Of a DNA stretch of 64,000 bases, positions 42,890-54,348 are shown piece after piece. This DNA comes from an uncultured Anaerolineae bacterium (lineage in GTDB: Bacteria > Chloroflexota > Anaerolineae > JACIWP01). Position 1 is the first letter of the stretch; each line of letters opens with the position of its first letter. The position numbers and the translations under genes were made by a program. Location of the stretch: positions 1-64,000 of the forward strand of contig CALIBQ010000012.1 in the NCBI GenBank assembly GCA_938049385.1, given 5' to 3'. The notes beneath the pieces were generated by a model. That model worked only from the letters and a program-made list of their open reading frames with translations. It had not been told where the DNA came from and made no database searches.

Positions 42890-45800
42890 ATGTCACGCGT
42901 TTGCGGACAGTGCGGACATGATAATCCAGCGGAAGCACGCTACTGCGAGAGATGCGCCGCGCCTCTGGCCAATCTCTGCCCGGCCTGCGGCTTTGAGAAT
43001 CCCCCTGGTTTCAAGTTCTGCGGCAACTGCGGTGCGCATCTGGCCAGTGCGCAGTTGGGACGTGCGCCGGCCGATCAACTGCGCCGGCTCCAAAGCCTGA
43101 TGCCGGCGCAGTTGATGGAAAAGATGCTCCGTCAGGCCGAACACCTGCGCGGCGAGCGCCGCACGGTTACCGTGCTCTTCGCCGACCTGAGCGGCTTCAC
43201 ATCCATCTCGGAGCGGCTGGACCCGGAGGATGTGTATCAGCTCATGGACGAGGTCCTGCACGCCTTTGTGGAGGAGATTTACCGCTACGAAGGCACGGTG
43301 GACAAGTTTACCGGTGACGGCGTCATGGCCATTTTCGGCGCGCCGGTCGCTCATGAGGATGACCCGGAGCGCGCCGTGCGTGCGGCCGTCGGGATGCAGA
43401 ACGCGCTGAGTCGGCTGAACCGCTCCTTCGCCGGCCGCTACCACGTCGAGCTGAAGTGCCGCATCGGCCTGAACAGCGGGGAGGTGGTGGTCGGCGGGTT
43501 GGGTTCCGACCTGCGGCTGGACTACACCGTCATGGGAGATGCGGTCAATGTGGCGGCCCGACTCCAGCAGGCGGCGGAGCCGGGAGAAGTCCTGGTCAGC
43601 GAGGACATATTCCGGGCGACCGATCCGCTCTTCGCCTACGCGCTGGTGGGCGACCTGCGCCTGAAGGGCAAGACGGAGCCTGTGCGGGCGTACCGCCTGC
43701 TGGGGGAACGCGCCCAAAAGGGCCGCACGCGCGGCATTCGCGGGTTGGAGGCGCCGCTCATCGGCCGGCAAAGGGAGTTTGCCCAGCTCAAAGAGGCCGT
43801 CGAGAGCTGGATCACCGCCAGAGAAGGCGGCTTTATCCTCCTGACGGGGGAGGCCGGCATCGGGAAATCGCGCCTGACCAGCGAACTGCTCGCCGGGCTG
43901 GCCGGCCAGGATGTGGAGATTGTCCGCGCCGGGGCGCTCTCCCACACGGCCGGCATCGGCTGGTGGCTGATGCGCGAGCTTTTGCGGGGATATTTCGAAC
44001 TTGGGGAAGGAGACAGCGGCAGAGCGATCTGCGATACGGTGACTGGCCGGCTGGCGGAGCTGATGGGGCAGTCCGCGGATTCCGCACTGCCTTACATCCT
44101 CAACCTGCTTTCTCCGGAGGCAGTACCGGAATCGCACGCGCCGCGCATCGTTCATTTGACGCCGGCTGAACTCCAACAGCAAACCCTGCTGGCCCTGCGC
44201 GAGCTGTGGACGTGCGCGGCTCAGCGCCGCCCCCTGCTCCTCGTCCTTGACGACGTGCACTGGATAGACCGCCCCTCACTGGATGTCCTCCTGTTCCTGA
44301 TGGGCCTGGTGCCGAATGTGCCGCTCATCTTTTATGCCATTTCCCGGGCAGACGAAGGATATGTCGCGCGGGAGATATCGGCGCAGGCACAGGAGCGCAT
44401 CCCGGATCGCTTCCGGTCCCTGCACCTGGGTCCGCTTCCGCCGGCCGAGGTCGAGCACCTGTTGGACGAGCTTCTGGATGCGCCGGCACTGCCGGCGGAG
44501 TGGCGGCGGATCATCGTCTCCCGCGTGGAGGGCAACCCCTTCTTCCTGGAAGAGTTCGTGCGCATGATGATGGACCGCCGCCTGCTGGTCCAAGATGCGG
44601 CCGGCCGCTGGAAGGCTGAGGGCAATACCGCCGGCCTGGAGGATGTCCCACGCACGTTGCGGGGCTTGATCCTGGCGCGCGTGGACACGCTGGAGGAGCA
44701 GGCCCGGCATGTCCTGCAGTGTGCCTCGGTCATCGGCCGCACTTTCTCTCAACGTCTGCTGGCAGAGGTAGTAGATGCGCCGGCGGAACTGCCCCGTGAC
44801 CTGCGTCAGCTTGAACAGCGCGGCCTGATATTTCCGGAAGCAGACGCGGCAGAGGAGCGCTATGCCTTTTCCCATGCCCTGACGCAGGAAGCGGTATATG
44901 AAACCCTGCTGAAGAAGCGCCGGCAGGCCCTCCATCGCGCCGTCGGACAAGCGATGGAGCGGCTGTATCCCGACCGCATTATGGAGCAGGTGGAACTGCT
45001 GGCCCATCATTTCTATCTGGGGGAGGAGCCGGAGCGGGCGCTCCATTATGCCATCCTGGCCGGCCAGCAGGCCTCGGCGCGCTATGCCAATCGCGAAGCG
45101 CGCACCTATTATCAGCGGGCACTGGAGTTGGCGGATGCAGTGCCGGCAGTGCCGGCCCAGCGGATTGCCATCCTGGCCGGCATGGGCGATGTGGAGGGCT
45201 TCCTCGGCGCGTATGACGCCGCGCTGGGGATGTATCAGCAGGCCTATGCGCTGGCCGGCGCGCCCGAAGCCGGCCTTCCGCCGGCACAGCAGGCTGGCCT
45301 CCTGCGGAAGATGGCGCGCATCGAAGAGCGCCAGGGCAGTTACTCCCGCGCGGCTTCCCTGCTCCATTCGGCCCTGGACCTTCTCGATGGGCATACTGCG
45401 CAGGAGGCCGAGCACGAGCGGGCCCGGATATACAGTGACCTGGGATGGGTGGCCTTCCGGCAGGGCCTGACGGACGATGCCCGGGAATGGATGATGCGGG
45501 CGTTGAGCATCCTGGAGCCTTCGGATAACTGGCAGGACCTGGCCGCGGTGTACAACCGCATGGCCGGCATCAGCTATCAACTGGGCGATTGGGAGCGCGC
45601 GGCGGAGTATGCGCGCAAGGGCATGGAACTGCGCGAACGCATCGGGTACACCTACGGCCTCTCAATGTCGTACAACAACCTGTCGGTGATTTATATGGCC
45701 GGCGGCGACTGGGACCGCGGCATCCTCTACGCCGAAAAGAGCCTGGCGCTCAAACAGCAGATCGGGGATGTGGAGGGAGTGGGTATTTCCTTCAACAACC

Positions 45801-46456
45801 TGGGCATGGCGTACAAGGACCGGGGGGACCTGGATCGAGCGCGTCAGTACCTTCTGCAGGCCCTGGAAATCGCCCGCAAAATTCGCAACGCCAACCTGCT
45901 GGCCTCTGCGCTGGCCAACCTGGCCCATGTCTATCTGCTGGAAGGGAGCTGGGCGGATGGGGTCAGTTACGGCGAGGAAGCCCTGCGGGTGGCCGGCGAG
46001 TCAGGTTCAGTGGAACAACGGGTAGAAGCGCACTGTCTGCTGGCAGAGAGCTGGCTGTACGCCGGCGATCCGGAACGCGCCGCTCAGCATGCGGCGCAGG
46101 CCGCGGCCTTGGCCAGCGAGAGCGGCGCCTGTTACCTGCTGGCACTGGCGGCACGCGCAGAGGGGAAGCTGGCGCTGGGGCGAGGAGATGCGGACGGCGC
46201 GGTAGAGGCGTTCCAGCGGAGCACCGCCGGCTTCGCCGAGCTGGGGAACCGTCTGGAGCAGTACCGCTCTGCCGCTTGTCTGGGTCAGGCGTTGATCGTG
46301 CAGGGCCGCCTGGATGTGGGCCGGCGGCATTTGGAAGAGGCCCTGCGCGTCTTCGAGGAACTGGGCGCGGCGCGGGACGCCGCCGAAGCGCGCCGGCTGT
46401 CCCAGGAAATTGACTATCCCGCGAACAAGGACTGCGGCAAGGTAGTTTTCCGATGA
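42890..46456 (+). CDS. class III nucleotide cyclase / STAND ATPase / TPR signalling protein
   Basis: 1188 residues. A double zinc ribbon (CGQCG...CERC and CPACG...CGNCG, residues 5-46) is followed by a class III adenylate/guanylate cyclase domain (about 85-260). Its metal Asp residues sit in LFADLSGF and KFTGDGVMAIFGAP, and its transition-state Asn/Arg in DAVNVAARLQ. The Lys before TGDG suits ATP. Next is a STAND/AAA ATPase with Walker A GEAGIGKSRL (about 323) and Walker B LLLVLDDVHW, then a long array of TPR repeats (about 690-1150). A sensor or signal-transduction protein in the cytoplasm, possibly making cAMP in response to a protein or peptide signal. Its stop overlaps the next start (ATGA). 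Confidence 0.9.
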   Translation: MSRVCGQCGHDNPAEARYCERCAAPLANLCPACGFENPPGFKFCGNCGAHLASAQLGRAPADQLRRLQSLMPAQLMEKMLRQAEHLRGERRTVTVLFADLSGFTSISERLDPEDVYQLMDEVLHAFVEEIYRYEGTVDKFTGDGVMAIFGAPVAHEDDPERAVRAAVGMQNALSRLNRSFAGRYHVELKCRIGLNSGEVVVGGLGSDLRLDYTVMGDAVNVAARLQQAAEPGEVLVSEDIFRATDPLFAYALVGDLRLKGKTEPVRAYRLLGERAQKGRTRGIRGLEAPLIGRQREFAQLKEAVESWITAREGGFILLTGEAGIGKSRLTSELLAGLAGQDVEIVRAGALSHTAGIGWWLMRELLRGYFELGEGDSGRAICDTVTGRLAELMGQSADSALPYILNLLSPEAVPESHAPRIVHLTPAELQQQTLLALRELWTCAAQRRPLLLVLDDVHWIDRPSLDVLLFLMGLVPNVPLIFYAISRADEGYVAREISAQAQERIPDRFRSLHLGPLPPAEVEHLLDELLDAPALPAEWRRIIVSRVEGNPFFLEEFVRMMMDRRLLVQDAAGRWKAEGNTAGLEDVPRTLRGLILARVDTLEEQARHVLQCASVIGRTFSQRLLAEVVDAPAELPRDLRQLEQRGLIFPEADAAEERYAFSHALTQEAVYETLLKKRRQALHRAVGQAMERLYPDRIMEQVELLAHHFYLGEEPERALHYAILAGQQASARYANREARTYYQRALELADAVPAVPAQRIAILAGMGDVEGFLGAYDAALGMYQQAYALAGAPEAGLPPAQQAGLLRKMARIEERQGSYSRAASLLHSALDLLDGHTAQEAEHERARIYSDLGWVAFRQGLTDDAREWMMRALSILEPSDNWQDLAAVYNRMAGISYQLGDWERAAEYARKGMELRERIGYTYGLSMSYNNLSVIYMAGGDWDRGILYAEKSLALKQQIGDVEGVGISFNNLGMAYKDRGDLDRARQYLLQALEIARKIRNANLLASALANLAHVYLLEGSWADGVSYGEEALRVAGESGSVEQRVEAHCLLAESWLYAGDPERAAQHAAQAAALASESGACYLLALAARAEGKLALGRGDADGAVEAFQRSTAGFAELGNRLEQYRSAACLGQALIVQGRLDVGRRHLEEALRVFEELGAARDAAEARRLSQEIDYPANKDCGKVVFR

Positions 46457-49400
46457 CGCTGATTCAGACCAAAATCCTGCTTCCCAAACGCAGAAAGCAT
46501 ATTTTGCGGCGGGAAAGACTGCTCAACTTCCTGTATGAGCATCTGGACCGCCAGCTCATCCTGATTTCCGCCTCCGCCGGCTACGGCAAGACCAGCCTCC
46601 TGGTGGATTTTGCCAGCGATGCGGACTTCCCCATTTGCTGGTACACGTTGGACGAGACCGATCGCGACCCGCGGGTCTTTCTAGAGTATTTCATCGCCAG
46701 CATTGAGCGGGCGTTTCCGGGGAGTATGGCGGAGACGCGGCGCGCGCTGGCCGGCTGGGGCGGGGAGTTCAACCCCGACGCCTTCGCCGGCCTGCTGGTC
46801 AACGATATCGTGCTGAACATCCCCGACTTTTTCATGGTTGTGCTGGATGACTACCACCTCATCGACGACAGCGTCGCCATCAACCTTCTGCTGGACGCCT
46901 TTCTGCGCCGTCAGCCGGAAAACTGCCGGCTGGTCATCGCCTCACGCACCATCCCCACCTTGACGCCGCGCGGCATGGCCCTGCTGGTGGCGCGCCAGCA
47001 GGTGGTGGGTCTGGGGGTCAATCAGCTCCGCTTCACCTCGGAAGAGATCCAACAGCTCATCCGTCAAAACTACGGCCAGGAAATCACGCCCGAACAAGCC
47101 GAGGCGCTGGTCCGCGAGTCCGAGGGGTGGATCACTGCCATCTTACTGACCCATCACCGCATGTGGCAGGGGCTGATCGGAGACCTGGTGCGGGCGCAGG
47201 AGGGCGCCGGCAGTCTGTACAACTATCTGGCGTCCGAGGTGCTGGACCGCCTGGATCCCGCCCGCCAGGAGTTCCTGCTCCAGACATCCATCTTGCGGGT
47301 GCTTAGCCCGGCGATATGCGATGCACTGTTGGGGCGCTCAGACAGCCAGGCGATGCTGGAAGACCTGGAAGCCCGCAACCTCTTCACCATCCGGGTGGAA
47401 GAGGATGAGCAAGTGTGGTACCGTTATCACCGCCTCTTCCGCGAATTTCTGCAGGAGAAACTGCGAGAGCGCTCCACCGGCACTGAGCTGGCGCTCCATC
47501 TGCGGGCGGCACGCCTGCTGGAAAAAGAGGGGGATAAGACCGAGGCCATTCATCATTACCTGGAGGCCGGCGCGTACGAGGATGCCGCGCGCGTGATTGA
47601 GGAACTTGCTTCGGCAACGTATGATGCCGGCCGTATCGAGACGCTGCAGTCTTGGATCAATTCGCTGCCCGAAGAATTACTGCATCAACGGCCTCGGCTG
47701 GCGTGGTTTAAAGCGAAAATACTGTGGACACAGGACCGTGTCCAGGAATCGGTCTTTTATGCCGATGTTGCCCGAGAGGCGTTTGAGCGTTTGAACGATC
47801 CTGTCGGCGCCGCACAGGCTCTGATCGAAAAAAGCGCTGTTCTGCGAGTGCGCGGCCGGTACTCTGAGGCATTGGAAGCTTCAGAGCAAGCTCTCGCTCG
47901 TATGCAGTCCATACCGGAAGAGGCTCGCGCGAAGGCTTCCCTTACCCTTGCCGGCGCCTACCGCAACATTGCCCTGTGCCACTATCAGTTGGGAGACATC
48001 GGGAAGGGTATCCAGGAGCTTCGCAAGGCCCTACAGTTGTACGAGCAGACAGGCTATCTCCCCAACCTTGCACAAGCCCACAGCGATTTGGGGGTGCTCT
48101 TGCGCGCCTCCGGCAATACTGCCGGCGCACGGCATCATTTCGAGGAAGCGCTGGCCATCTGGGAGAAGGTCGGCAATCCGCTGGGCATGGCAACGGTGCT
48201 TAACAGCATTGGGGTTACCTATCACCACCAAGGGGAGTATCAAAAGGCCCTGGACATCTTCTCCATGGCCCTGCGGCGGGCGAGGGAGGCCGCCTCCGAC
48301 CGGCTGAGCGGCTTCATCCTGGCCGGCATCGGCGACGCGCATCTGGCGTTGGGCGAGGCTGAGCAGGCCATGGAGGCGTACAAAGAGAGCGAGGAGCTGG
48401 CGGAGCGCGCCGGCGACAACTTCCTGAAGAGCTATTTGATGGGTGTCCAGGCGATGGCCTACTTACTGCAGGGCAACGCTTCTCAGGCCCTACAGTTGGC
48501 GCGCGACGCCTTTGAACGCGCCACGGAACAGCACGCCCAGCGCGAAGCCGCCTTGTATCAGATCATCCTGGGTGCGGTCTATTCCGAGCTGGGCCGGCAC
48601 CCGCGCGCCGTGGACCTGCTCCAGCAGGCCGAGGAGGCTCTCCGGGCCGGCGGTGCCAATCAGGACCGCACGCGCGCCCTACTGCACCTGGCCATGGCGT
48701 ATTACCGCGCCGGCCGGCTGGAGGAGGCACTGCGAACGCTGGAACAACTCGCCGATGCCCTCCTGGAGCTGGGGCAGTATCACTTCCTCCAGGTAGATGC
48801 CCGTATAACTCGCCCTGTGCTGGAATATGCCGCGGCGCGTCAGGCAGGCGGCCGGCTCATCACAGACCTGGTGCGCTTGGCCGGCGCAGAACCAGTAAGC
48901 GCGGAGGAAGCGGAGAGTGTGGAAGCGCCGCCGGCCGCTGTTCCGCCCCTGCGCGTCTATCTGCTGGGCAAGACCCGTGTGTTCCTCGGCGACCAGGAGA
49001 TATCCGATAAAGCATGGCAGTCCATGAAAGCCCGCCAGTTGTTCTACTACTTCATCACCTATGGTCAGGACACCCGGGACCATGTGGCCACCCTGTTCTG
49101 GCCCGAATCTTCCACGGAACGGGCCGCCGGCTCGTTCTATGTGACGCTCCACCGCCTGCGCCGCGCGCTGTCTATTCAGGAAATTATCCTCTCCTCCGAG
49201 GAAGTGTACTATCTCAACCGGGCACTGACCATCTGGTGCGACCTGTGGGAATTTGAGCGCCTATTGAAGGAAGCGGAGACCCATCAGGCACAGGGCCGGC
49301 CCGACGAGGCGCATCAGCTTCGCGTGGAAGCGCTCAAGCTGGTGCGGGGGGAATTTTGCGCAGACCTAGCGGACATGGAATGGATCAGCCTGCGCCGGCA

Positions 49401-49707
49401 TGAGCTGACGTACATTTGTGACCAGCTCTTCCGCGAGGTCATCCGCTATCACCTCCGCCGGCAGGAATGGGAGGAGGCGCTCCGGTACGGCCAGCAGATG
49501 CTGGCACTGGACGCGTTCGACGAGGATGCCCACCGTCTGGTGATGTTCTGCCTGGCCCAAATGGGCCAGCGCTCCGCCGCCATGAAGCACTACCGCTCCC
49601 TGGCCCGCTCCCTGCGGCGGCATCAGGAAGCAGAGCCAGAACCGGAGACCACCGCATTGTACGAGCGCATCGCGTTGCGAGACCCGCATCTCTCGCTGGA
49701 ACTGTAA
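46453..49707 (+). CDS. STAND-type transcriptional regulator with TPR and SARP/BTAD domains
   Basis: 1084 residues. It opens like MalT/LuxR-type STAND regulators: LIQTKILLPKRRKHILRRERLL, Walker A ILISASAGYGKTSLL (about 35-49), Walker B FMVVLDDYHLID. TPR repeats fill roughly 440-800. The C-terminus (about 835-1075) begins PPLRVYLLGKTRVFLGDQEI, an OmpR-like winged helix, followed by a bacterial transcriptional activation domain with GEFCADLADMEWISLRRHEL and YHLRRQEWEEALRYGQQML. That pairing defines SARP-type activators, which bind direct repeats next to the -35 of peptide- or antibiotic-biosynthesis promoters. Translationally coupled to the cyclase protein. Likely DNA-binding activator of the genes that follow. 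Confidence 0.9.
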   Translation: MTLIQTKILLPKRRKHILRRERLLNFLYEHLDRQLILISASAGYGKTSLLVDFASDADFPICWYTLDETDRDPRVFLEYFIASIERAFPGSMAETRRALAGWGGEFNPDAFAGLLVNDIVLNIPDFFMVVLDDYHLIDDSVAINLLLDAFLRRQPENCRLVIASRTIPTLTPRGMALLVARQQVVGLGVNQLRFTSEEIQQLIRQNYGQEITPEQAEALVRESEGWITAILLTHHRMWQGLIGDLVRAQEGAGSLYNYLASEVLDRLDPARQEFLLQTSILRVLSPAICDALLGRSDSQAMLEDLEARNLFTIRVEEDEQVWYRYHRLFREFLQEKLRERSTGTELALHLRAARLLEKEGDKTEAIHHYLEAGAYEDAARVIEELASATYDAGRIETLQSWINSLPEELLHQRPRLAWFKAKILWTQDRVQESVFYADVAREAFERLNDPVGAAQALIEKSAVLRVRGRYSEALEASEQALARMQSIPEEARAKASLTLAGAYRNIALCHYQLGDIGKGIQELRKALQLYEQTGYLPNLAQAHSDLGVLLRASGNTAGARHHFEEALAIWEKVGNPLGMATVLNSIGVTYHHQGEYQKALDIFSMALRRAREAASDRLSGFILAGIGDAHLALGEAEQAMEAYKESEELAERAGDNFLKSYLMGVQAMAYLLQGNASQALQLARDAFERATEQHAQREAALYQIILGAVYSELGRHPRAVDLLQQAEEALRAGGANQDRTRALLHLAMAYYRAGRLEEALRTLEQLADALLELGQYHFLQVDARITRPVLEYAAARQAGGRLITDLVRLAGAEPVSAEEAESVEAPPAAVPPLRVYLLGKTRVFLGDQEISDKAWQSMKARQLFYYFITYGQDTRDHVATLFWPESSTERAAGSFYVTLHRLRRALSIQEIILSSEEVYYLNRALTIWCDLWEFERLLKEAETHQAQGRPDEAHQLRVEALKLVRGEFCADLADMEWISLRRHELTYICDQLFREVIRYHLRRQEWEEALRYGQQMLALDAFDEDAHRLVMFCLAQMGQRSAAMKHYRSLARSLRRHQEAEPEPETTALYERIALRDPHLSLEL

Positions 49708-49732
49708 GCCGGCAAATAGCGCCGGCTTTTTC
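49706..49732 (+). terminator. terminator after the SARP regulator
   Basis: AGCCGGC / GCCGGCT stem followed by TTTTTC directly after the stop codon, so the small genes downstream need their own promoter. Confidence 0.75.
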
Positions 49733-49762
49733 TATTACCCGCCCCGATTTTTCCCATCTCCG

Positions 49763-49822
49763 CAAATCTGCGCCGGAATGCCCAAATCTGTAAGGGGTTT
49801 TGTAATCCCCCCTGCGTATGAT
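49763..49822 (+). promoter_or_regulatory. activator-type promoter of the small-peptide genes with direct repeats
   Basis: CAAATCTG occurs at 49763-49770 and again at 49783-49790, 20 bp apart start to start. The -10 TATGAT is at 49817-49822, while the -35 region (GGGGTT) is poor. Direct repeats just upstream of a weak -35 are the layout used by SARP activators. Confidence 0.5.
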
Positions 49823-49905
49823 ATGGGTGTAAGCAGTTGAGGGAAGCGGCACACGAGGGTGATGGGAAACGCACACCGTACAAAACCATGATGGAGGTGG
49901 GTAAG

Positions 49906-50055
49906 ATGAAAGCCACGCACAAAGCCGCTCTGTATCGTCTGTTGAATGCGCGCAACGCTCGTGTCCTGTATCTGGTGCTGGTGCTGATTGCCCTGGTGCT
50001 GGGCGCCGGCGCGCCGGATGCGGTGGGCGTTGGTGGCGGCGGCGCGGGTGGATGA
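49906..50055 (+). CDS. 49-aa single-helix peptide with Gly-rich C-terminus, unknown
   Basis: Starts MKATHKAALYRLLNARNARV, then a hydrophobic helix (about residues 20-35, LYLVLVLIALVLGAGA), and ends PDAVGVGGGGAGG. The positively charged start and single helix suggest a membrane-inserted or exported peptide; the 14-residue Gly-rich tail would face outside. A GGAGG site lies before the ATG at 49906. I recognise no named family. Its position directly behind a SARP-like regulator and ahead of an NHLP-type gene makes a signal peptide or precursor peptide plausible, but this is inference. An upstream in-frame ATG at 49837 looks untranslated. Confidence 0.6.
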   Translation: MKATHKAALYRLLNARNARVLYLVLVLIALVLGAGAPDAVGVGGGGAGG

Positions 50056-50160
50056 TCGGGTGAAAGTGAGGCCCTGACGCGGCGCGGCGAAGAGGGCCGG
50101 CGATGTACGAAACGCTCACCCGCTTGCATCCTAGCCCGCGAGCGAGAGGAGGCAATCCCA

Positions 50161-50378
50161 TGACGGCAAAGACGTTGTCCACCCTGATTGGCACTGCAGT
50201 CATCGACGAGAATTTCCGACAAACCCTGTTAAGCGATCCCTGGTCGGCTTTGAACGGCTTCGATCTCACCCGCGAGGAAAAAGAAGCCATTGCCAGCATC
50301 GAGGCCAACAGCATTGAGCAGTTCGCCCTTCAGTTGGCGAGGTGGATTGCACAAACCGGGGATCGCGTGTATGGATAA
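50161..50378 (+). CDS. NHLP-clan (Os1348/Franean1_4349-like) small protein, possible RiPP precursor
   Basis: 72 residues beginning MTAKTLSTLIGTAVIDENFRQTLLSDPW, then ALNGFDLTREEKEAIASI. The pattern LIG-x-A-(V/L)-x-D-x-x-F-R-x-x-L-L-x-(D/N)-P-x-x-A-L-x-x-(F/Y)-x-L-(T/S)-x-x-E resembles the leader of nitrile-hydratase-like (NHLP) peptides and the small NHLP-clan proteins annotated in Chloroflexota as Os1348 or Franean1_4349 families. The tail AQTGDRVYG is short and lacks Cys or Ser/Thr clusters, so any modified core would be small. GAGAGGAGG precedes the ATG. No modifying enzyme is seen within the window. Confidence 0.65.
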
Positions 50379-50383
50379 TTCCC

Positions 50384-50902
50384 ATGCCCGATACTTCCTT
50401 CCCTGCGGCGTCGCAAACACGGGCGGGCATCCAGCCGGTAATTCTCATTGTCGATGACGAGCCCGATATCCGGGCCCTGATGGGGCGCATTTTGCGTGAG
50501 CGTGGCTACTCTACCGTCGAAGCCTGCGACAGGGAGGAAGCGCTTACGCATCTTGCGCGTTTGCCAATCAGCCTGGTCATCTGCAACCTGCGCATGCCCC
50601 GTCTCTCGGGCGCGGTGCTGTTTGACCTGATCCAGCGGGTGTGTCCGCCGCTGGCGGAGCGCTTCCTGTTCTGTACGGGAGATATTGCTTCCAAAGAGGC
50701 CTTGCGGTTCCTAAATCAGACGGGCCGGCCGTACCTGTTCAAACCCTTTGATGTGGGCCAGTTCGTCGAGCTGGTGGAAGAGACGGTCCAGGTCCCTATC
50801 GTCGTGGATGTTCGTCTGCGGATGGAACTGCTCAGGCTTGCGGACGACGTGGGGATGCCGCGTGCCGGCTGTCCCCGTCCCATTGTGGTTCAGCGTCGGT
50901 AA
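50384..50902 (+). CDS. atypical response-regulator receiver protein (phospho-acceptor Asp replaced by Asn)
   Basis: 172 residues. CheY-like receiver: VILIVDDEPDIRALM has the acidic pair, ICNLRMPRLSG occupies the phosphorylation loop with Asn68 where Asp is expected, LFCTGD has the Thr switch and YLFKPFD the conserved Lys. It therefore cannot be phosphorylated in the usual way. A C-terminal extension of about 45 residues (VPIVVDVRLRMELLRLADDVG...) has no recognisable DNA-binding domain. It starts five bases after the NHLP-type gene stop, so it belongs to the same transcript. Possibly a protein-protein switch. The start at 50384 lacks a strong ribosome site. Confidence 0.8.
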   Translation: MPDTSFPAASQTRAGIQPVILIVDDEPDIRALMGRILRERGYSTVEACDREEALTHLARLPISLVICNLRMPRLSGAVLFDLIQRVCPPLAERFLFCTGDIASKEALRFLNQTGRPYLFKPFDVGQFVELVEETVQVPIVVDVRLRMELLRLADDVGMPRAGCPRPIVVQRR

Positions 50903-50954
50903 GCCAGTTTCGCAACGTCCACTGCCCGGCCGGCTGCCGGCTTGGAGAGGTGAT

Positions 50955-51158
50955 ATGACCTCAGAATATGTGCGCGCCTGGTTGTACTTCGATCCTACAG
51001 CGCGAGAAGTGATTGTGTATTCCGCTGACGCTCCGGATTTGAGCGGCAAACCCCTGAAATGGGTGTGGGAGCAAGGCTGGCGGCTGAAGACCTACGCCCA
51101 GGACAACCGGGTGACCCTGGCGCGCCTAGAAGCCGCCCGCGAGGATTCCGGGGAATAG
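50955..51158 (+). CDS. 67-aa protein of unknown function ending the peptide cassette
   Basis: Begins MTSEYVRAWLYFDPTAREVIVYSADAP and ends LEAAREDSGE; soluble, mixed alpha/beta character, with no signal peptide or membrane segment. GGAGAGG precedes the ATG at 50955. It lies 52 bp after the receiver gene and before a strong terminator, so it is the last gene of the cassette. I do not recognise a family. Confidence 0.6.
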   Translation: MTSEYVRAWLYFDPTAREVIVYSADAPDLSGKPLKWVWEQGWRLKTYAQDNRVTLARLEAAREDSGE

Positions 51159-51183
51159 CTTTTCATATGGCAAGTGGGAGGCA

Positions 51184-51246
51184 AAGCACCTCCCCGGCCG
51201 CATGTGCCGGCGTGCACGCGGGGCCAGGGAGGTGCTGTTGTTTTTC
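51184..51246 (+). terminator. terminator of the peptide cassette
   Basis: AGCACCTCCC pairs with GGGAGGTGCT around a GC-rich inner hairpin, followed by GTTGTTTTT. Confidence 0.75.
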
Positions 51247-51625: not shown

Positions 51626-53314
51626 TTAATCGCCCGGCTGCCAGCGCTCCAGGCGCCGCCGGCCCAGTTCCCAGGCCGCGGCGACCGCTCCCAGCGCGAT
51701 GAGATATGTAGCCACCGCCGCGCCAAGCATCAACGGGACCAAAGGCGGGAGCCGCAGAGCCGTCTGCCACAGGGTCATGACCAGCCCGCTGGCCGGGTCG
51801 TCGGGGGCCAGGAGGATCATCAGGCCGGCGCTTAGGACGAGCTGAGCGGCCGCCAGGAACGCGAACAGGAACAGGCTGAGATAGGTGCCGGTCACCCCCA
51901 CCGAGCGGCGCGGATGATCCGCCAGGAACTGCGGGTCAATACTGCCGGCGGCGGTGCCGGCGAAAGCAAACAGGAGCGAGAGCACGCTGTTCTGCACCAG
52001 CGCCAGCCAGAACCAGGGTGCCGGCAGGGCCAGGAGCGCGCCCAGCACCGCCGTGACAACCACCGAGATGGCCAATAGGAACGGCGCGGTGGCGGCGGCC
52101 TTGGCCGCCATGAGCGCACCGGCCGAAAGGGGCAGGGAGCGCACCAGCTCGATGTTTTTCCCCTCCGCGCCGATGGCCGGCACATTGACCGCCAGGGCGA
52201 AGAACCAGGCGACGAACGGACAGAGCAGGGTCGCCGCCCAGAACTCGGCACCGAGCGGCAGGGACGCCCTCTGCTGAAAGCCCAGCCAGTAGATATAAAA
52301 GGCGCCCATGATGAGCGGCATGATGAGACTGCTCAACCAGCGGGGGTCGCGCCGCAGGATGGCCCAATCTTTGACGGCGATCTCGCGCGCCGGCCGCGGG
52401 TACAGGCGCGCCAGCAAGGGCAGTCTCTGCCGGCGTGTGACCGCCGGGTGTCCGATGGTGGGGCGCATCTCATGAAAGGCCGCCCGAGAGCGGTAGAAGG
52501 TAACGTCGTACACCCGATAGGCCAAGCCGATCAGCAGGAGAGCGCCGGCGAGCACCGCTGTGGCACTGAACACAAAGGCACCCCACTGCTGACTGCAGAG
52601 CGCTTCCAAGGATAGGGCCAGCCAGCTTGTGGGCAGCCAGCGCAGGGAATGGCCCAGGCGCGCCAGCGAGTCCGTATGTTCGACGAAGTAGGCGATCGGT
52701 TCAGCGCGCTGGGTGAGAATCATCCAGGCGAACCACAGCACGCCAAAAGTGAGGGTGAAGAGCACGGCTGAGAGATCACGCGCCCGCTTCGCCGGCAGTA
52801 CGCGCACGATGAGCATAATCAGGAGCATCGAGAGGGATACCAACATTGCCATTACCAGGAGGATGGCAGTGAGGAGCCAGGGATAATAGAACCAGGGGGC
52901 GCCAGAAGCCCAGCCGAAGCCAATGCCGGCGGCCAACCCCAACAGTCCACCGATCAAGATGGACCAGGTGGCCTCGGCCAGCTTCAGCAGGAAGATGTCC
53001 CGCCGGGCAATAGGAAGCGAGAGCAGAAGCTCCATGTCGGAGCGCAGGAAGAGCTGGTTCAGGTTTGTCCCGATGCCCCAAAAGAGGGCGATGGTGAACA
53101 GGCCGGCGAAAAAAGTGTTCAGCAGTGTGCCGGCGCCGGCGGGGAAAAATGCCAGCACCAGGGAGAAGAGCTCCTGCGTGCCCCGCACGACCATCACAAA
53201 GAGATAGATGGAAAGCCCGTACCACACCAGTCGGGGGATCACGCGCCGCATACTGCCCCGGAAGAGGGTGTTCTTCCAGATGGCAAACTTGCTCTGAAAC
53301 AGGAGAGCGAGCAT
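51626..53314 (-). CDS. ABC-2 type transporter permease, large membrane subunit
   Basis: 562 residues with about twelve to fourteen hydrophobic segments in two halves, the layout of ABC-2 permeases that pair with a separate ATPase (Bacillus YthB/EcsB or ABC-2_lan types). No sequence motif fixes the substrate. It starts four bases after the ATPase gene ends, so the two are co-translated. Probably an exporter of peptides, lipids or antibiotics. Confidence 0.75.
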   Translation of the reverse strand: MLALLFQSKFAIWKNTLFRGSMRRVIPRLVWYGLSIYLFVMVVRGTQELFSLVLAFFPAGAGTLLNTFFAGLFTIALFWGIGTNLNQLFLRSDMELLLSLPIARRDIFLLKLAEATWSILIGGLLGLAAGIGFGWASGAPWFYYPWLLTAILLVMAMLVSLSMLLIMLIVRVLPAKRARDLSAVLFTLTFGVLWFAWMILTQRAEPIAYFVEHTDSLARLGHSLRWLPTSWLALSLEALCSQQWGAFVFSATAVLAGALLLIGLAYRVYDVTFYRSRAAFHEMRPTIGHPAVTRRQRLPLLARLYPRPAREIAVKDWAILRRDPRWLSSLIMPLIMGAFYIYWLGFQQRASLPLGAEFWAATLLCPFVAWFFALAVNVPAIGAEGKNIELVRSLPLSAGALMAAKAAATAPFLLAISVVVTAVLGALLALPAPWFWLALVQNSVLSLLFAFAGTAAGSIDPQFLADHPRRSVGVTGTYLSLFLFAFLAAAQLVLSAGLMILLAPDDPASGLVMTLWQTALRLPPLVPLMLGAAVATYLIALGAVAAAWELGRRRLERWQPGD

Positions 53315-53318
53315 GGCC

Positions 53319-54080
53319 TTATCCCTCGCGCAGATAGGCGGCGATTTCGGCGACCTCTGGCCCGCCGGTCAGGGAGATGAAGAGCTCCTCCAGGCTGGCA
53401 TCGGCGCGGCCGCCGCCGGCACGCAGTTCTTCCAGGCTTCCGACCGCCACCAGCCGGCCCTGGTGGATGATGCCCACCCGTTCGCACATCTGCTCGGCGA
53501 TCTCCAGGATGTGGGTGGACATGAAGACGGTGGTGCCCTGCCGGCACAGCTCTCGCAGGATGTCTTTCACCAGCCGGGCACTGCGCGGGTCCAGGCTGTT
53601 GGTGGGCTCATCCAGGAAGAGCACCTTCGGCCGATGCACCAGCACACTGCATAAGGCCAGCTTCTTGCGCATGCCCTGGGAGTATGATTCAATCAGGTCG
53701 TCGGCGCGCTCCATCAGTCCGAACAGCTCCAGCAGGCGGTCCACCTGATGCGTGCGTGCCGGCTCCGGGATGCGGCGGAGGCCGGCGATGAAGTGGAGAA
53801 ACTCTCTGCCGGTGAGCTTGTCGTATAGGAATGGGTTCTCCGGCAGGTAGCCGATGGACCGTTTGACGTCCATGGCATTGTGAACCACGTGGAAGCCGTT
53901 GACCCAGGCGTCGCCGGCAGTGGGTTGGAGAAGGCCGGCCAGCATGCGGATGGTAGTGGTCTTGCCGGCACCGTTGGGACCGAGGAATCCGAACAGTTCG
54001 CCGGCAGGGACTTCGAGCTGCAGGTCGTTGACCGCGAGCAGATCCCCGAAGGACTTGGTGAGGCCCTGAATGCGGATCAT
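53319..54080 (-). CDS. ABC transporter ATP-binding protein of the ABC-2 exporter
   Basis: 253 residues. Walker A LGPNGAGKTTTIRM, Q-loop GYLPENPFLYDKLTGREFL, signature YSQGMRKKLALCSVL (SQG variant), Walker B KVLFLDEPTNSLDPR and H-loop STHILEIAEQMC. The L-P-E-x-P-x-L-Y/F and Y-S-x-G-M-R-(Q/K)-(R/K) forms are typical of CcmA/DrrA/YhaQ-type exporters. Start 54080 has AAGGAAGC upstream; the frame beyond it covers the promoter. Confidence 0.92.
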   Translation of the reverse strand: MIRIQGLTKSFGDLLAVNDLQLEVPAGELFGFLGPNGAGKTTTIRMLAGLLQPTAGDAWVNGFHVVHNAMDVKRSIGYLPENPFLYDKLTGREFLHFIAGLRRIPEPARTHQVDRLLELFGLMERADDLIESYSQGMRKKLALCSVLVHRPKVLFLDEPTNSLDPRSARLVKDILRELCRQGTTVFMSTHILEIAEQMCERVGIIHQGRLVAVGSLEELRAGGGRADASLEELFISLTGGPEVAEIAAYLREG

Positions 54081-54135
54081 GGGACAGCTTCCTTTCCTGC
54101 ATAACACGTGCACGAGGCGAAGGCAATCAATGTTG

Positions 54136-54165
54136 ATTATACTCGTCAGTGTTACGCGCCGGCAA
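54136..54165 (-). promoter_or_regulatory. promoter of the ABC-2 exporter operon
   Basis: On the minus strand TTGCCG (54165-54160) and TATAAT (54141-54136), spacer 18 bp. The divergent gap 54081-54431 also holds the sigma-factor promoter; nothing else is seen in it. Confidence 0.5.
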
Positions 54166-54272
54166 ATCAGCGAAGGGAACATTCTGCCGGCGTTTTTCGT
54201 CTCATGGGGGCGGAACTGCCGGCGAGAATGCCGGAGCCGGCAAAATTTCCCCGACAAAATTGTGAAAAGTAA

Positions 54273-54302
54273 TTGACAAACGGATTGCCCTTGCGCTATA
54301 AT
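54273..54302 (+). promoter_or_regulatory. promoter of the sigma factor gene
   Basis: TTGACA (54273-54278) and TATAAT (54297-54302), spacer 18 bp. The sigma factor gene is thus transcribed from a housekeeping-type promoter. Confidence 0.75.
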
Positions 54303-54348
54303 AAAACATACCTGTGAAATTCGCCGGGGCAATCTGGTGAGTATCAGC

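Follow-up and report, generated by a model that had tools for sequence, protein, structure and literature searches.

A phylum-wide gene cassette of Chloroflexota combining a SARP-STAND regulator, a short GAP peptide and an Os1348-type NHLP protein, with a possible role in peptide signalling

Our comparative analysis revealed a gene cassette in which a regulator that joins a STAND ATPase to a SARP-type DNA-binding part (SARP-STAND) is followed, in conserved order, by a short peptide and an Os1348-type NHLP protein. The starting point is a 64,000-nucleotide stretch of DNA (contig CALIBQ010000012.1 of assembly GCA_938049385.1, here called the window) from an uncultured Anaerolineae bacterium. The cassette is present in at least 25 families and is a real, phylum-wide unit of Chloroflexota; in most relatives, a membrane protein of the DUF5317 family is inserted between the peptide and the NHLP protein. 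In the literature searched, we found no paper on DUF5317 or on such a cassette, none joining SARP with Anaerolineae or SARP with Chloroflexi and STAND, and no peptide-signalling system for Chloroflexota.

Apart from the window itself, a search with its NHLP protein turned up a single named locus, L002 of Chloroflexi MAG-37, where the order is SARP-STAND, short peptide (MKKWLPTVYKLANSNTVRFVWILLVISALVLGSGAPEAFSGSGGG), DUF5317, NHLP protein and receiver. A peptide profile (A1) built from 13 sequences and searched in 396 genomes of the class matched 120 of them at E <= 0.01, the weak matches including chance ones. Flanking DNA was examined for 60 of the best A1 matches and then for more matches from a 400-genome search of the phylum. 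This gave 69 loci, in 31 families, whose flanks were long enough to analyse and which were chosen by the peptide alone. A SARP-STAND gene lies directly upstream on the same strand at 59 of these 69 loci, an NHLP gene downstream at 63, and a DUF5317 gene between or beside peptide and NHLP at 59; regulator and NHLP protein are both present at 57 loci from 25 families, including other classes of Chloroflexota. Several loci that lack members reflect contig or frame effects, or have the member slightly past the distance limit used. A second seed consisted of NHLP proteins with no peptide nearby that the profile could detect; it gave 18 further loci, 12 of which have SARP-STAND upstream. Nearly all of these 12 contain, between regulator and NHLP gene, a short open reading frame preceded by a Shine-Dalgarno sequence and encoding a hydrophobic stretch and a Gly- or Cys-rich tail (e.g. 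MKARIQFGLLKLADPRVVRVLLVGLTLALTLLAGSSVVYASPDGAGGT), in some cases with a plain signal-peptidase site. The design thus persists where the sequence does not.

In the window, all elements of the locus lie on the plus strand. The SARP-STAND gene (1084 amino acids, 46453-49707) is followed by an intrinsic terminator (49706-49728, fold -14.3 kcal/mol), the SARP operator with its -10 box (49787-49822), and the genes for the 49-amino-acid GAP peptide (MKATHKAALYRLLNARNARVLYLVLVLIALVLGAGAPDAVGVGGGGAGG; 49906-50055), the 72-amino-acid NHLP protein (50160-50378), a stand-alone receiver domain of 172 amino acids (50384-50902) and a familyless protein of 67 amino acids (50955-51158). A strong terminator with a long GC stem and a T-tail closes the operon (51160-51246, region fold -46.9 kcal/mol). 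Upstream, a gene for a cyclase-STAND protein (1188 amino acids, 42890-46456) overlaps the SARP-STAND reading frame by ATGA at 46453-46456. An earlier reading of the window from its letters alone (the sequence-only reading) had drawn these six genes as one unit. All six genes are present where it had placed them and at the lengths it gave, and the ATGA overlap, the two terminators and a promoter of SARP type were confirmed as well. The test that it had proposed, whether the gene order recurs with varying neighbours in other Chloroflexota, came out in favour of a unit. As drawn, the six-gene unit is nevertheless rejected: the core of SARP-STAND, peptide and NHLP protein is real, while the cyclase-STAND and 67-amino-acid genes are confined to the genus and the receiver is just one of the proteins that occupy a variable signalling slot. 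DUF5317, the commonest fourth member, was invisible to that reading because the window's genus carries it elsewhere.

The four small genes are under purifying selection. Between the window and the congeneric locus L064 (genome G002), which share 83-95% nucleotide identity, the ratio of nonsynonymous to synonymous substitution rates (dN/dS) is about 0.14 for the 49-, 0 for the 72-, 0.15 for the 172- and about 0.20 for the 67-amino-acid gene; values so far below 1 indicate that the small open reading frames are more than chance. The NHLP protein is identical in the two despite silent-site differences. Neither the 49- nor the 67-amino-acid protein matches a Pfam or NCBIfam model, so that a cassette spanning at least 25 families encodes a peptide that belongs to none.

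The regulator consists of a MalT-type STAND ATPase, a TPR array and a C-terminal BTAD domain by Pfam and NCBIfam profiles, with BTAD at residues 929-1073 of 1084 (PF03704, 84.9 bits; cut-off 22.1), and its gene is one of three BTAD genes in the window's genome. SARP and SARP-LAL proteins are known to use direct repeats of this kind as operators (PMC5930380, PMC10972967), and such repeats occur here. The intergenic regions between regulator and peptide of 66 loci contain 110 exact 6-mer direct repeats at 11 bp and 132 at 12 bp, compared to 3.3 and 2.7 expected from dinucleotide shuffles; 22 bp is enriched too, and 13-19 bp is not. At 48 of the 66 loci, a -10-like box comes after a heptamer repeat (3.3 +/- 2.1 in shuffles). 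The half-sites vary with lineage (GTGAGT, TTGAAGCC, AGCTAAA, GTAAGCAC) and the spacing is retained. In the window, the operator reads TCTGTAA-5 nt-TTTGTAA-11 nt-TATGAT, a 12-bp repeat with TATGAT at 49817-49822, and is unchanged in congener L064. This combination of repeat and -10 box matches once in the window and never in 100 shuffles, which bears out the promoter call of the sequence-only reading. A generic sigma-70 scan of the window called no peptide promoter, as expected for one that depends on an activator. Moreover, the operator is unique in the two genomes tested. In G105, sites with no or one mismatch occur at the peptide promoter only, the remainder not exceeding a reversed-pattern control; in the window's genome, the 22-nt form is unique within three mismatches, with a pattern derived from that very site. 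This uniqueness makes the regulator look dedicated to the peptide operon, and by all sequence evidence SARP-STAND is probably its dedicated local regulator, the role that had been proposed for the SARP gene over the small-gene operon.

The peptide is laid out as a basic N-end, one hydrophobic helix, a GAP motif and a Gly-rich tail. Among 40 aligned peptides M1, A36 and P37 (window numbering) are invariant, and G35 is kept in at least 90%. Lys and Arg together average 3.6 per peptide ahead of the helix and 0.15 after GAP, an asymmetry that predicts an N-in/C-out topology. Tails such as PDAVGVGGGGAGG and APDAVGVGGGGAGG have a median length of 8 residues after GAP and are 41% Gly. The peptide genes have strong Shine-Dalgarno sequences, and some loci carry two or three tandem copies. 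In the tandem pair of locus L091, the 12 codons of the tail differ by 4 silent changes and by no amino acid, against 5 amino-acid and 7 silent changes over the 22 codons upstream.

DUF5317, confirmed as PF17248 in the relatives, is modelled with high confidence (pLDDT score 93.4) as a protein with five membrane helices, in which the conserved loop that joins helices 4 and 5 is predicted from charge to lie outside. Its invariant residues are N102-G104, K135, D151, S166 and D169 in the numbering of L002. No similar fold (best E 2.8) and no sequence relative was found in the PDB, profile searches tied it to no other family, and a search on plasmids gave no match. All eight genomes with a GAP peptide and no DUF5317 in the cassette hold a copy elsewhere; DUF5317 is absent from 12 genomes in which every peptide detected is without GAP. 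In the window's genus, the only copy is an isolated one outside the cassette (L131:808-1425 on G000:C43, and L182); it directly follows ftsH and has no adjoining peptide, and in the window's genome truD comes after it. Furthermore, DUF5317 comes third in a second module of families f44, f62 and f2 (L175, L176, L118, L177-L179), after a peptide of 26-35 amino acids that ends in KWH or KWR, with tails such as GATAKWH or GASAKWR, and a membrane HD-GYP protein with MASE9. This module contains neither SARP nor NHLP. At L199, L210 and L121, DUF5317 and short peptides with tails such as AGMRW and GGAASEHWD adjoin GGDEF-EAL proteins, and at L208 (1-2037) it is fused to an exporter-like MFS_3 domain in a 679-amino-acid protein. 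About a dozen more DUF5317 matches lie in open frames of 600-740 amino acids, which suggests further fusions. Across the phylum, DUF5317 is therefore found in SARP/peptide/NHLP cassettes, beside HD-GYP, beside GGDEF-EAL or fused to MFS_3, and these settings tie it to short exported-type peptides and cyclic-di-GMP proteins. Thermotoga maritima, one of the control genomes, carries both a DUF5317 gene and a BTAD gene. The T. maritima peptide TM0504 was reportedly linked to cyclic-di-GMP and exopolysaccharide (Johnson 2005, cited in PMC4187201).

The sequence-only reading rightly called the 72-amino-acid protein NHLP-type; specifically, it belongs to the Os1348 family (NF038399, 63.8 bits with a cut-off of 40; PF14407, 52.7 bits with a gathering score of 48). 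It stops just after its last helix and has no core region. Among relatives, C-terminal extensions are variable and share no common core, and conservation sits in the helical domain. In a fold search, its closest matches are Os1348 and SonA, a borosin precursor, with 6lk7 (Os1348) as the best, weak match (E 0.79, TM score 0.48; profile match E 7e-8). A different, stand-alone subtype of Os1348-type NHLP protein (MSQDAVSQIIGRAV...) was seen at L146 and L147, with no SARP or peptide nearby. At most loci, the slot after NHLP is occupied on the same strand by a histidine kinase (bare or with PAS/GAF), an HD-GYP protein, a GGDEF-EAL protein or a receiver. Eleven of the 12 slot kinases and HD-GYP proteins checked have no membrane-helix-like hydrophobic stretch; the twelfth, at L119, reaches 2.05 on a 19-residue scale. 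The window's receiver (PF00072, 66.1 bits; cut-off 30.2) has Asn68 at the phospho-Asp position and retains the acid pair, Thr and Lys, in agreement with the earlier description of a receiver without its Asp. Eight of nine receiver orthologues, from families f1, f29 and f42, carry Asn there and preserve the acid pair, Thr and Lys; the change is therefore a conserved feature and does not mark a decayed gene.

Taken as a whole, the cassette could be a self-contained, self-regulated circuit for signalling by an exported peptide, a mechanism to which we give slightly less than an even chance. SARP-STAND, once its STAND/TPR part is triggered, would bind the direct-repeat operator and turn on the peptide operon. 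The peptide would enter the membrane with its N-end inside and its short Gly-rich tail outside, and where GAP is present, DUF5317, with its conserved loop predicted on the same outer side, may act on or with the GAP junction in processing, release or export. The tail, cleaved and released, would serve as the signal; the TPR part of SARP-STAND would most likely sense it, directly or indirectly, and an autoinducing loop would thereby be closed. Output would run through the NHLP protein and the signalling protein in the fifth slot, be it kinase, HD-GYP, GGDEF-EAL or receiver, and in many lineages would probably reach cyclic-di-GMP. The product itself may well be an unmodified signal peptide, as the sequence-only reading had proposed. 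Tentatively, these elements might be extended to a phylum-wide class of peptide signalling, with STAND-TPR-SARP as sensor and activator, the exported Gly-rich tail as signal, and DUF5317 as a new membrane protein for peptide processing or export that also serves cyclic-di-GMP modules; we consider this broader proposal possible and rather doubtful.

Several observations weigh against the signalling circuit. A Pro right after Ala makes a poor signal-peptidase site, so that peptides of the common GAP type may remain membrane-bound. In the tandem pair of L099 it is the tail that carries the changes, and the remaining tandem pairs have tails too short or too recent for a selection test. The cassette includes neither an importer nor an exporter, and DUF5317 and the output gene are absent from several lineages. 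The link of GAP peptides to DUF5317 in trans rests on few families, with truly isolated copies only in f1 and f7; a strict coupling of this kind is weakened, as the copies in f2 and f44 belong to their own KWH-peptide module.

These points bring in the main rival explanation, in which the peptide is never released and instead, as a small single-helix membrane subunit, binds and tunes a partner (DUF5317 where present) and reports the state of membrane or envelope to cytosolic signalling proteins. The invariant GAP with Pro directly after Ala would suit the end of an anchored helix, and DUF5317, by prediction a well-folded membrane protein, accompanies short peptides in three kinds of module. 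We nevertheless consider such a subunit unlikely, because several lineages have peptide and NHLP protein with no DUF5317 anywhere in the genome, their peptides show ordinary signal-peptide ends and Gly/Cys tails, and tandem copies would be odd for a stoichiometric subunit. An antimicrobial role is less likely than a membrane-resident peptide and, in our estimate, improbable: the peptide would act as a leaderless bacteriocin-like or membrane-active weapon, DUF5317 would confer immunity or serve in export, and control by SARP would parallel that of antibiotic clusters. In its favour, antibiotic genes are the usual targets of SARP regulators (PMC10972967), Os1348 has an effect on antibiotic activity in Pseudomonas (PMC7726476), the peptides are cationic and hydrophobic, and an MFS fusion of DUF5317 exists. 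Against it stand the tails, which are short, neutral and rich in Gly, and the last genes of the cassette, which encode kinases, HD-GYP proteins or receivers rather than enzymes or exporters; the cassette is also widespread and mostly single-copy, unlike a scattered arms-race locus.

A further alternative makes the NHLP protein the precursor of a ribosomally synthesized and post-translationally modified peptide (RiPP), with the short peptide as an accessory and the modifying enzyme encoded elsewhere. Its above-cut-off family scores and its nearest folds agree with this. The missing core, the varying extensions, the conservation of the helical domain and the finding that no modifying enzyme recurs near the cassette loci led us to reject a RiPP cluster, and we hold the alternative to be very improbable. 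The chance that unrelated small genes merely lie beside a regulator is negligible. It would fit the lineage-restricted outer genes; for the core, it is refuted by the order conservation in peptide-selected loci across 25 families and several classes, and the SARP operators and purifying selection likewise speak against it.

Among the closest known systems are the SARP-LAL regulators PimR, SanG and PolR of Streptomyces, which share a BTAD-type DNA-binding part fused to a large STAND ATPase. PimR has a cyclase-like part and a single target gene, and SARP-LAL proteins use heptameric direct repeats at 10-11 bp (PMC5930380, PMC3367932). In the window, by contrast, the SARP part is C-terminal, the reverse of PimR with its N-terminal SARP and C-terminal LAL part; the cyclase is encoded by a separate overlapping gene in one genus only; the target is a short-peptide operon and not an antibiotic cluster; and the repeats lie 11 or 12 bp apart. 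RRNPPA pheromone systems, SHP/Rgg among them, also place a short hydrophobic peptide gene next to the gene of its TPR-containing controlling regulator. Here, however, the regulator is STAND-TPR-BTAD and not HTH-TPR, so that the defining receptor is absent, DUF5317 and NHLP are extra members, and the hosts are not Firmicutes. Agr-type systems combine a membrane protein beside a small amphipathic-hydrophobic peptide with kinase or receiver genes. The likeness of our cassette to them, as another pairing of membrane protein, peptide and kinase or receiver, is loose: DUF5317 has no solved fold or linked family, the kinases are soluble, the regulator is SARP-STAND, and there is no evidence of a cyclic peptide. 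The Os1348 cluster of Pseudomonas sp. Os17 shares the NCBIfam domain family, with Os1348 as the best PDB match in both fold and sequence, but Os1348 adjoins acetyltransferase, HEXXH-peptidase and efflux genes, none of which was found at the cassette.

Chloroflexota are abundant and mostly uncultured. With a familyless peptide, a partner without a solved relative and an operator that can be read from sequence, direct tests are possible. They could ask which peptide each lineage makes, whether SARP-STAND senses it, what DUF5317 does, and what NHLP-type proteins do without RiPP enzymes. Moreover, that DUF5317 also neighbours HD-GYP and GGDEF-EAL proteins suggests that peptides control cyclic-di-GMP.

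The accessory cyclase-STAND protein comprises a double zinc ribbon, a class III nucleotide cyclase, an AAA/STAND part and TPR by Pfam and NCBIfam profiles, and the usual metal and substrate residues of the catalytic part, read by eye in the sequence, are present. It aligns to the TOMM kinase/cyclase fusion (TIGR03903) over its cyclase and STAND parts with 284.9 bits, far under the cut-off of 705.75; it has no kinase domain match, and there are no TOMM enzymes. Its gene is present in all three genomes of the window's genus, overlapping the SARP-STAND gene each time, and in no cassette locus outside the genus; the 67-amino-acid gene was seen only in the window and congener L064 among the loci compared. 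Just downstream, on the minus strand at 51626-54332, lie ABC permease and ATPase genes that are not conserved neighbours of the cassette.

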